Origin: Candidatus Binatia bacterium
GTDB lineage: Bacteria; Desulfobacterota; Binatia; HRBIN30
Length of the DNA stretch: 64,000 nt
Direction: 5' to 3'
NCBI GenBank assembly: GCA_026415395.1
Contig: JAOAHD010000007.1
Coordinates: 124,001 to 188,000 of the forward strand
Position 1 is the first letter of the stretch, and every line of letters starts with the position of its first letter. The translations under genes were made by a program, and so were the position numbers. Under the pieces are notes generated by a model. That model did no database searches. It was not told the DNA's origin and saw nothing but the letters and a program-made list of their open reading frames with translations. Shown here one piece after another: positions 58,876 through 64,000 of this stretch.

Positions 58876-59420
58876 GAGGCTAGCCCCTTTGTACCTGTAG
58901 CGGCAGGAGCCGACACCGATCCTAAGTGCCAGAGCTCTTTTAAGCGAGGATACGTCAGGATGAACCAAAGGAGCTGAGGGGCCAGCACGAAGCTGAGGAG
59001 ACCACTGAAGACCCCGAGCGTGTCCGTCCACCAACTCGGATGCGCCAGCACAACCGGGTATATGAGCAGCACGAGCACGTGCACGAGAAAAAACGCCACC
59101 ATGCCAATCACACAGCGCCCCACGGTGCCCACCAACCCTAAACCGGGCGTGGCGCAGATCAGTGCCTGCAAAGGTACTTGTGCCATCGAGAGTAGGGAAA
59201 CATCGATTTGCAATGGAATTTCCACGCCGCCCTTGGTGAACACTGGGTTCGAGCGATCGGTTGCCCCGAACTCGAGCCACCATCCGGTCAAAGCCGGACT
59301 GACCAACCTGGCTAATTCCAACGCAGCAGTCCGATACGCGGTGCCGAAGCCCGCGCTTGCCCAGGTTGCCAAAAGCAAAGTGAAGGCGGCGATGAAGCGC
59401 AATGCAAACTTAATCTTCAT
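58872..59420 (-). CDS. Exosortase H-associated membrane protein
   Basis: Membrane protein of 182 residues with a signal-like first helix (FALRFIAAFTLLLATW), a periplasmic region (PALTGWWLEFGATDRSNPVFTKGGVEIPLQIDVSL) and three further helices. Size, topology and position immediately after xrtH match the small membrane protein that accompanies exosortase H in other bacteria. Both ends overlap neighbours by 4 bases, so it is translationally coupled. The role is unknown; it may assist or modulate XrtH. Confidence 0.75.
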   Translation of the reverse strand: MKIKFALRFIAAFTLLLATWASAGFGTAYRTAALELARLVSPALTGWWLEFGATDRSNPVFTKGGVEIPLQIDVSLLSMAQVPLQALICATPGLGLVGTVGRCVIGMVAFFLVHVLVLLIYPVVLAHPSWWTDTLGVFSGLLSFVLAPQLLWFILTYPRLKELWHLGSVSAPAATGTKGLAS

Positions 59421-59917
59421 GTTGGGCGTGCCCGCTCCACCCAGGCCATGGCGTACAGGGTCACCAACATCAAAAACACTCCCTGCCAAACGTATTCGTG
59501 AAAATAATCGAAGAGGCTGGGATAGAACTCCACCAAGCGCACCAACATGGCAATGCGGGCAACATTCACCGCGGATAGAAGCGCCACCCCGAGAATCATG
59601 CCGGCGACCTTTTGCTGCCACGGTGCCGGGTAAGCGAGGATGAAGCTGAAGAGCACGACAAAGACGAACAACCCCGTGCACTCGTGATTGACCTCTAGGC
59701 TCGCGCTCTCCGTCACGATGATGTTGCCGCTGACAACGTTGGCCTTTGAGCCAGCGAGCTGGGCGAGCGATGCTGCTACACTCGCAATCGCGCGCTCAAT
59801 GGGCGCTAGCCGGTTTTGCAAGCCGCTAACTGCCGCGAAGGCGCTAAACGCCCACAAACAGCCGAAAAAGATCGACACGAACCTGATAATTGGTCTACGC
59901 ATCGCCCTCCCACTCAC
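59417..59917 (-). CDS. xrtH: Exosortase H
   Basis: Integral membrane cysteine protease/transpeptidase of the exosortase family, about 166 residues with four to five helices. The three conserved residues are visible: Cys80 in NHECTGLFVFVVLF, Arg121 in SAVNVARIAMLV and His140 in DYFHEYVWQGVFL. The small size and sequence fit the XrtH group, which cleaves proteins with C-terminal IPTLxxWG-type signals. GTG at 59917 overlaps the lnt stop (GTGA); ATG at 59902, behind GGGAGGG, is an alternative start. It is followed by its associated membrane protein. Confidence 0.85.
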   Translation of the reverse strand: MSGRAMRRPIIRFVSIFFGCLWAFSAFAAVSGLQNRLAPIERAIASVAASLAQLAGSKANVVSGNIIVTESASLEVNHECTGLFVFVVLFSFILAYPAPWQQKVAGMILGVALLSAVNVARIAMLVRLVEFYPSLFDYFHEYVWQGVFLMLVTLYAMAWVERARPT

Positions 59918-61554
59918 AACAACTGAGCTGTGGATAGTGCTCCGCCGTTACACCTCGCCTCTCGCAGTTTTCCCGCGGAAGTGTGCCGCCGTTGCTGCAG
60001 CAGGAGCACCGTACCGAGGAAGATTGCCGCCATCCACGGCAAGGCATCGCCGAGCCGTGCGTATACGGTCGGCAGGTTCAACAGCCGCGCTTCGCCCGTG
60101 ACCACTTCTTCCGTGAACAAACCGCCCTGAGCGCGGACCCGCCCAGCAGCATCGATGATGCTGGTGACCCCGGTGTTCGATCCGCGCAGTAAGAATCGCC
60201 GGTTTTCGATGGCGCGCCAGAGGGCCAGGGCTTGGTGCTGGTACGGCGCCGGGCTGTCGCCGTACCAGGCATCGTTGAGAATGGTGACCAGCACATTCGC
60301 TCCTGCCAAGGTGGTTTTCCGTGGCATATCGCCGACGATGTCCTCGAAGCAAATCAGTTGACCCACCCGCGCGCCATTGTCGAGCACAAACACCCGCTCG
60401 CTGCGCCCGGCGGTTAAACGCCCACTGGCTGGGCTGAGTGCGTACACCGCGGGAACGAGTTCCCCGCCGGGGATGTATTCGCCGAATGGCATGAGGATGC
60501 GCTTGTCGTAGCGGCCGCGAACGATGCCCCCGGGCTCAATCCAAAAGGCGCTGTTGAACTGTTCCACCTTATCCGCACCGACAAACCGGTAGGCGAGACC
60601 ACCGAAGATCAGGTGAGAGCGTAGATCAGGAAACGGGTTTTCCTTGCCGCGCAACTGCCCCAGGTCGGCTGGGATCCATTCTTGGTGAACCGTCTCCGGC
60701 CACACGAGCAGATCAACTTGTTCCTGCACCGCGCGGCTGAGCTGCCGGTATTTTTCCAGGTTCACCTCGAAGTACCGCAGATCCCCCTTTTCCGCGATGC
60801 CCACGTTGCCTTGCACCAGCGCCACACGAATGGCTGGCGCTTGCCGCATCGCCTCGTCCACCTGCGGCAAGCGGTACCAACCGTAAACCCAAAGCAGGGC
60901 TGCGGTCACGATGGAAGCAACGAGCGCCACGGCTTGCCGGATGGTGCACCAGTGGGCAGCGGCCGCGGCAAACCACACCATGACGAAACTCAGTAAGTAC
61001 GGCCCTGCCAAGTCACCGCTCTGCACCAAATGCAGAGCCTGCATTTGGCTGTTGGCCAGGCGCCACGGAAACAAGTTCGGATACCAATACTCGAGCACAA
61101 CCCAAGCGGCGGCCACCGCCAGGGGCCACATCGGGCCACGGCGCAAGCGGTGGACAACCCATCCGAAGGCGGCAAACTGGACGGCAGTGAACGCAGTCAG
61201 TAGCAGGTAGAATACGAGAGCAACGGGGAGCGGAAAGCCGCCGAACACGCGGATCGTGTACACGAGCCAGTAAAATGCCGGGAGATTGGTTGCCCAGCCA
61301 GCAATCCAGCCGAGACCGGCGGCGTGCCGCCCCGTGGGCGCTTGCCACACCGCGATGAGCAACGGCACGAGCGCGACCCAAGCCAACGGGTACAACTCGA
61401 ACCAAATGAAGCTCGCAGCCACGGCCAACCCCGACACAGCCGCGGCCACAGTGCCGATAAGACAGCCCTGCAGAGGAATCCCCACTCCGCGGGCTGCTGG
61501 GTTTAGCGTAGATCGTTGCCCTCCGGCGATCGGCAGAAGCGGCCAATTCGACAC
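59914..61554 (-). CDS. lnt: Apolipoprotein N-acyltransferase
   Basis: Inner-membrane enzyme of 546 residues that adds the third acyl chain to lipoproteins. Six to eight helices precede a nitrilase-like periplasmic domain with the catalytic Glu in LLVWPETVHQEW, Lys in YDKRILMPFGEYIPGG and Cys in GQLICFEDIVGD. A final helix anchors the C-terminus (MAAIFLGTVLLL). It is coupled to xrtH by a 4-base overlap and is about 70 bases from the cytochrome gene. Confidence 0.95.
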   Translation of the reverse strand: MSNWPLLPIAGGQRSTLNPAARGVGIPLQGCLIGTVAAAVSGLAVAASFIWFELYPLAWVALVPLLIAVWQAPTGRHAAGLGWIAGWATNLPAFYWLVYTIRVFGGFPLPVALVFYLLLTAFTAVQFAAFGWVVHRLRRGPMWPLAVAAAWVVLEYWYPNLFPWRLANSQMQALHLVQSGDLAGPYLLSFVMVWFAAAAAHWCTIRQAVALVASIVTAALLWVYGWYRLPQVDEAMRQAPAIRVALVQGNVGIAEKGDLRYFEVNLEKYRQLSRAVQEQVDLLVWPETVHQEWIPADLGQLRGKENPFPDLRSHLIFGGLAYRFVGADKVEQFNSAFWIEPGGIVRGRYDKRILMPFGEYIPGGELVPAVYALSPASGRLTAGRSERVFVLDNGARVGQLICFEDIVGDMPRKTTLAGANVLVTILNDAWYGDSPAPYQHQALALWRAIENRRFLLRGSNTGVTSIIDAAGRVRAQGGLFTEEVVTGEARLLNLPTVYARLGDALPWMAAIFLGTVLLLQQRRHTSAGKLREARCNGGALSTAQLL

Positions 61555-61623: not shown

Positions 61624-62031
61624 TCATGGTGGGGAAGCTGCCAGCGCTTGCCGGCGGGCCACTGGAACAGAAAGAAGCGGCTGCTGGCGGGCGTCGTGAA
61701 CTTCGCTGCTCGTGAACGGCTCCACCCTAGCCTCTCCGCGATCGAAACGCTCCAACATCCAGTTAAGAAGCGCAGCTAAGCGTTCGTCGCTGAGTTCCGC
61801 GTGCGCTACCCCAGGCACGCGCAGTAGGTACGCACGCCCATCAGCCGTGCGCGCTAAGCGCCGCAGGTTGCCGGCAAAGGGCGGGGCGCCATCACGCGAG
61901 CCCTCGCCGCGGGGGCCGTGGCAGCCTTGACAGTGTAACACGTAGTCCGCTTGCGGATCGGCCTGAGCTGAGGCCACGCAAAAGCTGCCCAGCAGCCAAA
62001 TGAGCACGGAGAACGCCGCCCTGTGTTTCAC
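61624..62031 (-). CDS. Periplasmic monohaem c-type cytochrome
   Basis: Exported cytochrome of 135 residues: signal peptide (MKHRAAFSVLIWLLGSFCVASAQA), one haem site CQGCH (Cys34, Cys37, His38) and a probable Met ligand in LLNWMLERF. GTG at 62031 overlaps the mauA stop (GTGA), so it belongs to the amine dehydrogenase operon. It probably takes electrons from the dehydrogenase in place of the copper protein amicyanin (MauC), which is not encoded here. Confidence 0.85.
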   Translation of the reverse strand: MKHRAAFSVLIWLLGSFCVASAQADPQADYVLHCQGCHGPRGEGSRDGAPPFAGNLRRLARTADGRAYLLRVPGVAHAELSDERLAALLNWMLERFDRGEARVEPFTSSEVHDARQQPLLSVPVARRQALAASPP

Positions 62032-62582
62032 ACATCCCCCTTGGCCTCACCGAGCACGATTGCCGTCGAGCAGTGGTACACCACGTTGTTGATCCCGTGG
62101 CACCAGTTGATGTCGTTGCTGCGCTGCGGGTAGTAGACCGGCTTGTCGCCTTCGTTGCGGTGGCAGTAGCAAAGCCCGCACACGTGCTTCGCGCAGCAGT
62201 CGTTGTAGGAAATGATGTACAGCTTCCCATCAGCAGGGTTGCGGCAAGTGCCGATCCACGTCACCGGCGACTGGATGGTGCCAGGCGGGCAGGAACGCTG
62301 TGTGCCACCGCAGCAACTGCAGAGGAACCCATCGATGGCACAATGCCGCCAATACTCGCAGCGCGATGGGTCGCCCGCTGGGTGGTCAATCCCCGGCTCG
62401 CCCTGCACGGCCTCTTTCCGCGCCGTGCTGGCCCGTGCGACTGGCAACAGCGGGTAGGTTGCCATGCCGACGAGAGCCGTCCCAACCCGCGCCAAGAAGC
62501 TGCGGCGCGAGGTGCGGTCCGCCAACCGCCGCGCCCAGCGAGCACACAACGTGTCGATTGTGGCAAACAGGGGCTCCAGCAT
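62028..62582 (-). CDS. mauA: TTQ amine dehydrogenase light chain (MauA/AauA)
   Basis: Periplasmic small subunit of a tryptophan tryptophylquinone amine dehydrogenase, 184 residues. The N-terminus has a twin-arginine signal (TSRRSFLARVG). Cysteines expected for the disulfide network are present (RCEYWRHCAIDGFLCSCCGG, SCPPGT, YNDCCAKHVCGLCYC). The TTQ-forming tryptophans are Trp109 (VTWIGTC) and Trp160 (DINWC); the catalytic Asp aligns with Asp128. Several positions (GFLCSCCGGT, WIGTC) resemble aromatic amine dehydrogenase more than methylamine dehydrogenase, from memory of those families. The product would be aldehyde plus ammonia. Confidence 0.92.
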   Translation of the reverse strand: MLEPLFATIDTLCARWARRLADRTSRRSFLARVGTALVGMATYPLLPVARASTARKEAVQGEPGIDHPAGDPSRCEYWRHCAIDGFLCSCCGGTQRSCPPGTIQSPVTWIGTCRNPADGKLYIISYNDCCAKHVCGLCYCHRNEGDKPVYYPQRSNDINWCHGINNVVYHCSTAIVLGEAKGDV

Positions 62583-62595
62583 CGATGACCTCCGC

Positions 62596-63198
62596 CTAAC
62601 CCGCGACGCGTTGCCGTTGCAAGTACTCCTGAATTGAACCCACACCATGGCGGTAGGCCTCGAACAAACTTTCGATGTGCTCCCGCGTGTTCACGATTCC
62701 TTTGGCGCGCAGCACGCCCTTGGGGTCGAGCAGCACAGCGAACGGCAGCTTCGGCACCTGATACGCTAGGCCCAGCTCCGTCGAAAGTACGTAAGGAAAG
62801 CGGGAACCCAGGCGAGCCAACATTTCCTCGTGCTCGTCGATGGGCCCTTCACTCGCGAGCACAATGTCCAGCCATCGTTCCTCGCTGCGGCGAACGGAGT
62901 CGAGCACCGGCAAGAGCGCTTTGCACGCCGGGCACTGGGGCGCCACCCACACGAGCAGGGTACAGCGTTGGTCGCTGCGCGTGCCGCCAATGTGCACGGT
63001 CTGCCCGCGCAAGTCGCGCAACTCGAACGCAGGCGCCACACTCCCCACTTGCGGCGCGGTTTGTGGCACCAAGGCGCCCACTGGGGCAATGCGTGCTTGC
63101 AACAGCCCAACTTGCCGCACGAGCGCGAGCACGACCACCGCCAACCCGACCACTACCAGCCAAAGCAACACTTGGGAAACGATCAGCGCAGTCGACAT
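62596..63198 (-). CDS. mauD: Amine dehydrogenase accessory thioredoxin-like protein MauD
   Basis: Membrane-anchored thioredoxin-fold protein of 200 residues, needed for correct disulfides in the light chain. It has an N-terminal helix (LIVSQVLLWLVVVGLAVVVLAL), the redox motif VAPQCPACKALLPVL (CPAC), and the family region GSVAPAFELRDLRGQTVHIGG. It lies 13 bases from mauA and 12 from mauE, in the standard B-E-D-A order. Confidence 0.93.
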   Translation of the reverse strand: MSTALIVSQVLLWLVVVGLAVVVLALVRQVGLLQARIAPVGALVPQTAPQVGSVAPAFELRDLRGQTVHIGGTRSDQRCTLLVWVAPQCPACKALLPVLDSVRRSEERWLDIVLASEGPIDEHEEMLARLGSRFPYVLSTELGLAYQVPKLPFAVLLDPKGVLRAKGIVNTREHIESLFEAYRHGVGSIQEYLQRQRVAG

Positions 63199-63210
63199 TG
63201 GCGTTGCTCG

Positions 63211-63750
63211 TCAAGTGCGGTCCGTCTTGTCAGCCAGTTTGTCGGCTGGAGTTTGTGCGAGCATCTCCAAAGCTAAGTACAGGACAACCAGCGCTAAAGC
63301 GGCAGCGGCGACGGTGAAGGTATCGAGCCAGGTCCAGGGGCGAGCCGGCGCGCTCCCCGTGGCCACGAGGAACAACGCAGCAAGCACGAGATTCCGCCAC
63401 ACCAGTGCCCAGCTAATGTTCGCTGCTCCGCGCGGGCCCGCGCACCCACAGGGGTGATCGGTGCGGCCCGCAACAATCTCGCGCACCAGCACCCCGGCGT
63501 AGAGGAGCAAGAGCGCAGCACTGCCGGCGCACGCCAGCGTGAAGGCTCCGGCAAAACAAAATGCCAGCGCAAGGGAAAGTTCGGTGACAATCAGGCCGAG
63601 AGCCAGGAGTCCGTGCAGCGGCGCTGCCGGAATACGGTAGAGTGCCAAGATGTTCCGAAACTCCTTAGGTGCGCGGAGTTTGTGCCAGGCGGCGCTGGAC
63701 CAAAGTAAAACACCGAGCACGCGCACGAGCATTTGATACGCGACATCCAT
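63211..63750 (-). CDS. mauE: Amine dehydrogenase accessory membrane protein MauE
   Basis: Inner-membrane protein of 179 residues with four to five helices, of the DoxX-like MauE family. Typical are AWHKLRAPKEFRNILALYRI, LVTEL-like VTELSLALAF, and the paired cysteines DHPCGCAGPRG before the third helix, which may take part in disulfide transfer with MauD. It lies three bases from mauB. Confidence 0.92.
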   Translation of the reverse strand: MDVAYQMLVRVLGVLLWSSAAWHKLRAPKEFRNILALYRIPAAPLHGLLALGLIVTELSLALAFCFAGAFTLACAGSAALLLLYAGVLVREIVAGRTDHPCGCAGPRGAANISWALVWRNLVLAALFLVATGSAPARPWTWLDTFTVAAAALALVVLYLALEMLAQTPADKLADKTDRT

Positions 63751-63753
63751 TGC

Positions 63754-64000
63754 TCAGCGGCTGCCTCCGTAGGGAGCGAAAAGCAAATCGGTCATCCAGC
63801 CAATGGGTTGCACCCGCCGCACGAACGCCCCCGAGCGTGCGTCGTACACGGCAAGCGCGCCGGCAAACTCGCACGCAGTAATCAGCAGCGGGTTCTCATC
63901 TTGGGTGACGGCAATCGACTTGACCAAGGGCGGAATCCAGCGATCCAGCGCCCGCTCCCAAAGCCACGGCAACGGCCAGCGCCACGAGGCGTCAGGCTCG
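63754..64000 (-). CDS. mauB: TTQ amine dehydrogenase heavy chain, C-terminal part
   Basis: C-terminal end (about 81 residues) of the periplasmic beta-propeller heavy chain; the rest is beyond the right edge. The segment SIAVTQDENPLLITACEFAGALAVYDARSG, followed by a short tail, agrees with the last propeller blade of MauB/AauB. Position before mauE in the same direction supports the call. Confidence 0.85.
   Translation of the reverse strand, partial: EPDASWRWPLPWLWERALDRWIPPLVKSIAVTQDENPLLITACEFAGALAVYDARSGAFVRRVQPIGWMTDLLFAPYGGSR

Follow-up and report, generated by a model that had tools for sequence, protein, structure and literature searches.

The TTQ-dependent amine dehydrogenases closest to the locus described here are the aromatic amine dehydrogenase (AADH) of A. 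faecalis and the methylamine dehydrogenase (MADH) of Paracoccus denitrificans. The aau cluster of A. faecalis, reportedly described by Chistoserdov in 2001, is said to consist of aauBEDA-orf2, that is, the order B-E-D-A-monohaem cytochrome c without mauFGC. Azurin is the established electron acceptor of this AADH. The mau clusters, such as that of P. denitrificans (L088), contain mauF, J, G, M and N and usually amicyanin. MauG and BthA are dihaem enzymes, and haem-driven oxidation of protein tryptophans is the role of MauG. To our knowledge, no explanation has been given, since the sequencing of the aau cluster, for how AADH-type enzymes form TTQ without MauG.

Surveys of Binatota read genes of this kind as mauA and mauB and inferred methylamine use, with amicyanin as the acceptor (PMC8262859, PMC11264602). 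The HRBin30 order was reported to be without methanol dehydrogenase, and methylamine is a main C1 substrate claimed for it. Here we analyse an operon from this group. The best explanation overall, to which we give about an even chance, would be a non-MADH TTQ amine dehydrogenase operon whose small cytochrome, t1, serves as a MauG-independent maturation partner.

The amine dehydrogenase operon and its flanks

The window, by which we mean the whole analysed stretch of 64,000 nucleotides, corresponds to bases 124001-188000 of contig C7 in a 3.69-Mb genome of 25 contigs that is about 96% complete. At its right edge lies a tightly spaced minus-strand operon that runs from 64995, past the window edge, to 61624 and encodes in this order a heavy chain, MauE, MauD, a light chain and a monohaem cytochrome c. 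The features are as follows, in window coordinates:

63754..64000, minus strand: heavy chain of a TTQ amine dehydrogenase, 3' part, the gene running to 64995 (413 aa complete; PF06433 2.6e-38)
63211..63750, minus strand: MauE-type membrane protein (179 aa; PF07291 5.3e-20)
62596..63198, minus strand: MauD-type thioredoxin-fold accessory protein (200 aa; TIGR02661 208 bits, cut-off 188.6)
62028..62582 (ORF open to 62648), minus strand: TTQ light chain (206-aa ORF; PF02975 4.4e-48)
61624..62031, minus strand: t1, periplasmic monohaem c-type cytochrome (135 aa; CQGCH; VPG replaces the Met loop)
59914..61554, minus strand: lnt, apolipoprotein N-acyltransferase, flanking and outside the system (TIGR00546 250 bits)

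The PF06433 score was taken on the complete 413-aa heavy chain, read from beyond the window edge (ORF L002:4755-5996). The compact order B-E-D-A-cytochrome c named in the original prediction was thus recovered in full, with all five minus-strand ORFs present and profile matches for B, E, D and A. The start of t1 overlaps the stop of the light chain by 4 bases. The light-chain family is represented by one gene copy in the genome, and its nearest relatives in the light-chain search belong to bacterium HR30 (HRbin30) and a Candidatus Binatia MAG (82% identity). Next after lnt, on the same strand, is an exosortase-like membrane protein at 59417-59917.

To the right of the operon, past the window edge, we identified LamG-domain, divergent class I fumarase, luciferase-like and AIR-synthase-like genes, and a MauG just beyond that edge was rejected. 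Neither mauF nor mauG nor mauC lies beside the operon on this side, and lnt occupies the other, so that their absence, proposed from the window alone, holds beyond it. The query cluster also contains no mauJ/L, mauM or mauN. Because the query layout is the one reported for the aau cluster of A. faecalis, the missing mauFGC is the normal aau arrangement and nothing odd. Public plasmid records likewise carry the aau layout, matching the query.

Relationship to characterised TTQ enzymes

Based on its sequence, the operon very probably encodes a periplasmic TTQ-dependent amine dehydrogenase. The light chain has its probable start at M23 (ATG at 62582), followed by a twin-arginine (Tat-like) leader, TSRRSFLARVG. 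W131 and W182 (206-aa ORF numbering) align with the TTQ tryptophans, both of which had been predicted to be kept, and the catalytic Asp is D150. The mature light-chain domain contains 14 cysteines, and a residue census found the core cysteines conserved. The motifs CSCCGG, WIGTC and CGLCYC, from which an AADH-like cysteine pattern had been proposed, are present, and A. faecalis AADH has the same pattern; however, C113 and C157 are not diagnostic alone, because half of the AADH-side references are missing both and one MADH reference has both. Since these residues vary within both families, the cysteine pattern was rejected as proof of AADH, and the C113/C157 pair suggests an optional extra disulfide. 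At the position of the active-site Thr, which we take to be Thr122 in MADH numbering and Thr172 in AADH numbering, most members of the query's clade have a Ser (S194 in the query), with the hydroxyl retained. Across the AADH and MADH references C113 and C157 occur in equal counts, as though gained or lost jointly.

For both chains the best-scoring reference is A. faecalis AADH (PDB 2agl, 2h3x). Light-chain identity over the shared region is 54% to this enzyme and 46% to MADH, and among PDB entries the heavy chain gave its best, still only moderate, match to it (169 bits, compared with 114 bits for MADH). The light chain scored 176.9 bits with the NCBIfam MADH light-chain equivalog, under the curated cut-off of 196.85. 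MADH formed a fully supported clade in the trees, with the query excluded, and in the light-chain tree with more intermediates a 99* branch set the query on the AADH side, apart from MADH. Constraining the heavy chain with MADH was rejected (p-AU 0.0036); the corresponding constraint on the short light chain alone, in a smaller set, was not rejected (p 0.39). The phylogeny agrees with the earlier claim that this TTQ amine dehydrogenase is not inside MADH, and we consider the query enzyme almost certain to lie outside that family. The aromatic-amine-like reading fared less well. The best scores uphold a likeness to AADH, but the query falls outside the AADH reference clade in the trees, although holding its genus and AADH together was not rejected for the light chain (p-AU 0.08). 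The trees place it in a deep clade shared with Binatota and Myxococcota, a third one next to the MADH and A. faecalis AADH clades, and for this reason aromatic amines as the substrate are a guess.

These results bear directly on the published reading, in which the genes are named mauA/mauB and methylamine use is inferred (PMC8262859, PMC11264602), so that the query would be a methylamine dehydrogenase supporting methylotrophy. The query does share with P. denitrificans MADH homologous heavy and light chains, MauE, MauD, the TTQ tryptophans and the catalytic Asp. However, it lies outside the MADH clade, scores below the MADH equivalog cut-off and has t1 and no mauFGC, whereas mau clusters have no t1. 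In addition, no cupredoxin (PF00127) and no Fae were found in the query genome. We regard a methylamine dehydrogenase as very unlikely, and the "mauAB/methylamine" annotations published for Binatota should be revised because the trees do not support MADH placement. A PaaA/PaaC family protein was also not found in the query genome and therefore, together with the missing Fae, neither Fae methylotrophy nor a phenylacetyl-CoA route is indicated.

The t1 cytochrome and its association with TTQ enzymes

By its sequence features, the operon cytochrome belongs to a newly defined family, t1, in which the loop with the distal Met ligand is lost. The query has one CxxCH, VPG in the place of the Met loop and an adjoining TTQ light chain. 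In the t1 family alignment V48-P49-G50 is nearly invariant at the deletion site, and there is no conserved Met, His or Lys besides the CxxCH His. The closest solved relative by sequence profile and fold is Thermus thermophilus cytochrome c552 (1c52): the PDB profile match aligned t1 with c552 on both flanks of a missing segment of ~20 residues, and c552 was the top Foldseek match (TM 0.73) of the AlphaFold model (pLDDT 94.6). This segment is the loop that carries the distal ligand of c552, Met69. The t1 haem would accordingly differ from that of c552 in being five-coordinate, without a conserved sixth ligand.

The distribution of t1 follows that of TTQ enzymes outside MADH. Of the B-E-D-A loci of Binatota, Myxococcota and Proteobacteria, 83 had sufficient sequence; no mauFGJMN genes were found at any of these, and t1 adjoins the light chain at 81. 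The MADH reference loci, mostly from Paracoccus, show the opposite pattern, with mauFGJMN in 7/7 and t1 in 0/7. Within the order of the window t1 was present in all 11 genomes with a TTQ enzyme, always adjoining the light chain, and in 0/4 without one; a mixed genome set gave 16/16 and 0/18, respectively. Among 399 Burkholderiales, t1 (calls above 100 bits, with a score gap between 107 and 46 bits) was found in 20 of the 22 genomes with a light chain and in 0/377 without (Fisher p about 9e-32, relatedness ignored). Two genomes, one with only a 25-bit fragment and one with a sub-cut-off light-chain match, were scored as lacking a light chain. Nine Burkholderiales genomes with two light chains have two t1 copies each. 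The genomes behind all these counts are phylogenetically non-independent, and many are incomplete MAGs.

In one of the two Burkholderiales exceptions, G147, the sole cytochrome of the TTQ cluster is a Met-bearing c1, and the other, G054, has a strongly divergent t1 with MPP at the ligand site; t1 is therefore not absolutely required. Loci in Gammaproteobacteria without E, D or t1 directly beside the TTQ genes were considered as a refutation of the link, which was ruled out as t1 occurs elsewhere in all nine such genomes tested. Seven of the nine were inspected: four have t1 within a second B-A-t1 cluster, and in the other three it is a stand-alone gene. In three marine gammaproteobacterial genomes that are free of MauG (L242, L243 and L245), t1 is solitary and distant from the TTQ genes. 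The gammaproteobacterial clusters without adjacent MauE/MauD possibly encode enzymes for unusual amines.

This co-occurrence makes it highly likely that t1 is a functional partner of the TTQ enzyme. A small cytochrome encoded next to a dehydrogenase would most simply be its physiological electron acceptor, in which case TTQ would be made by another route, partly autocatalytic or through general periplasmic oxidants. In line with this role, t1 adjoins the light chain, has a signal peptide and is the sole local redox carrier in most clusters, and the lack of a detected cupredoxin in the query genome points the same way. However, the distal-Met loop is gone in nearly all t1 members, which is unusual for an electron carrier. 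A second cytochrome, c1, retains the Met and is found alongside t1 in several proteobacterial clusters, so t1 is kept even next to a Met-bearing protein. It is also present with enzymes whose light chains are 79-85% identical to that of A. faecalis AADH, and these are close relatives of an enzyme for which azurin is the acceptor. We rate the acceptor role as a serious possibility that falls somewhat below an even chance.

Candidate routes to TTQ maturation

The original prediction had left maturation to an unlinked or different enzyme. The query genome encodes four unlinked dihaem CCP/MauG-family proteins, two of which have the MauG-type Tyr ligand: L004 on contig C1 and L006 on contig C3 (also L107:8226-9368 and L108). 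In each of the two, a Tyr aligns with MauG Tyr294 and equivalents of Trp93 and Glu113 are present, and relatives of L004 are present in all 11 TTQ-containing genomes of the order. Maturation by one of these MauG-like proteins is therefore a candidate route in the query genome. However, Tyr-type relatives also occur in genomes of the order without a TTQ enzyme (G001, G010 and G014), and L004 sits in an ECF sigma factor/zinc-finger/phosphoesterase operon. Thus neither distribution nor operon context supports L004 as a dedicated MauG. Furthermore, no Tyr-type protein was found in some genomes that have TTQ clusters of the same type, and we consider TTQ maturation by L004 or L006 improbable.

This last point comes from a survey of MauG-family proteins in 50 genomes with a non-MADH TTQ enzyme, in which MAG incompleteness weakens single cases and not the pattern. 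No full PF03150 match was found in G021 (a single 3.67-Mb chromosome), G043, G053, G061 (a Pseudomonas isolate) or G062, and eight others (G026, G047, G050, G055 and G057-G060) have only family members with a Met ligand, as is usual in ordinary cytochrome c peroxidases. Two weak PF03150 matches in G021 (L194 and L195) were rejected as MauG, since they lie in proteins of >1100 aa that appear beta-propeller-like by eye. Of the two options in the prediction, the unlinked enzyme thus has candidates here, and the different route is favoured because no MauG-type protein was detected in many related genomes that share the operon. From these related genomes, TTQ maturation in the family is likely to be independent of MauG.

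The light-chain tree indicates where MauG entered. The clade sister to true MADH, from Burkholderiales (L226-L230), has the B-E-D-A-t1 layout and no mauFG; therefore the loss of t1 and the gain of mauG both map to the MADH branch on this tree. The swap of t1 for MauG on the MADH stem is a single event and is confounded with the gain of mauF, J, M and N and usually amicyanin. At some of the L226-L230 loci the next gene encodes a protein of about 470 aa with a Tat leader.

We propose that the heavy and light chains would convert a primary amine to aldehyde and ammonia, with the electrons stored on TTQ, and that MauE and MauD would, by homology, assist the folding of the disulfide-rich light chain. 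The open haem site of t1 could use peroxide or oxygen to cross-link and oxidise Trp131 and Trp182. In this way t1 would do for the query enzyme what MauG does for MADH, although it is a small monohaem cytochrome outside the dihaem CCP/MauG family, to which it would be linked only by the proposed oxidation of protein tryptophans. That t1 is a maturation catalyst rather than an electron acceptor only is a proposition we hold at just short of even. More tentatively, we put forward the broader idea that in non-MADH enzymes generally TTQ maturation is catalysed by a small open-site monohaem cytochrome, and that MauG took over this role later and in the MADH branch only. If true, t1 would represent a second, simpler haem route to a tryptophan-derived quinone. 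MauG-free TTQ formation is directly testable because a single candidate gene follows the enzyme from phylum to phylum, including where the two are not linked.

Several TTQ loci depart from the layouts described above. A Thermomicrobium roseum plasmid (L094) carries two very divergent TTQ light-chain-like stretches, with no recognisable heavy chain near them, and a 1791-base gene for a large protein of the MauE type. In gammaproteobacterial clusters at L029, L035, L036, L044-L050, L056, L057 and L060, MauE/MauD are not adjacent or lie several genes off. Translations inspected by eye revealed a cytochrome P450-like and ferredoxin-like pair near the TTQ genes at L044, L046, L048 and L056, and a Rieske-oxygenase-like gene near those at L047, L049 and L050.
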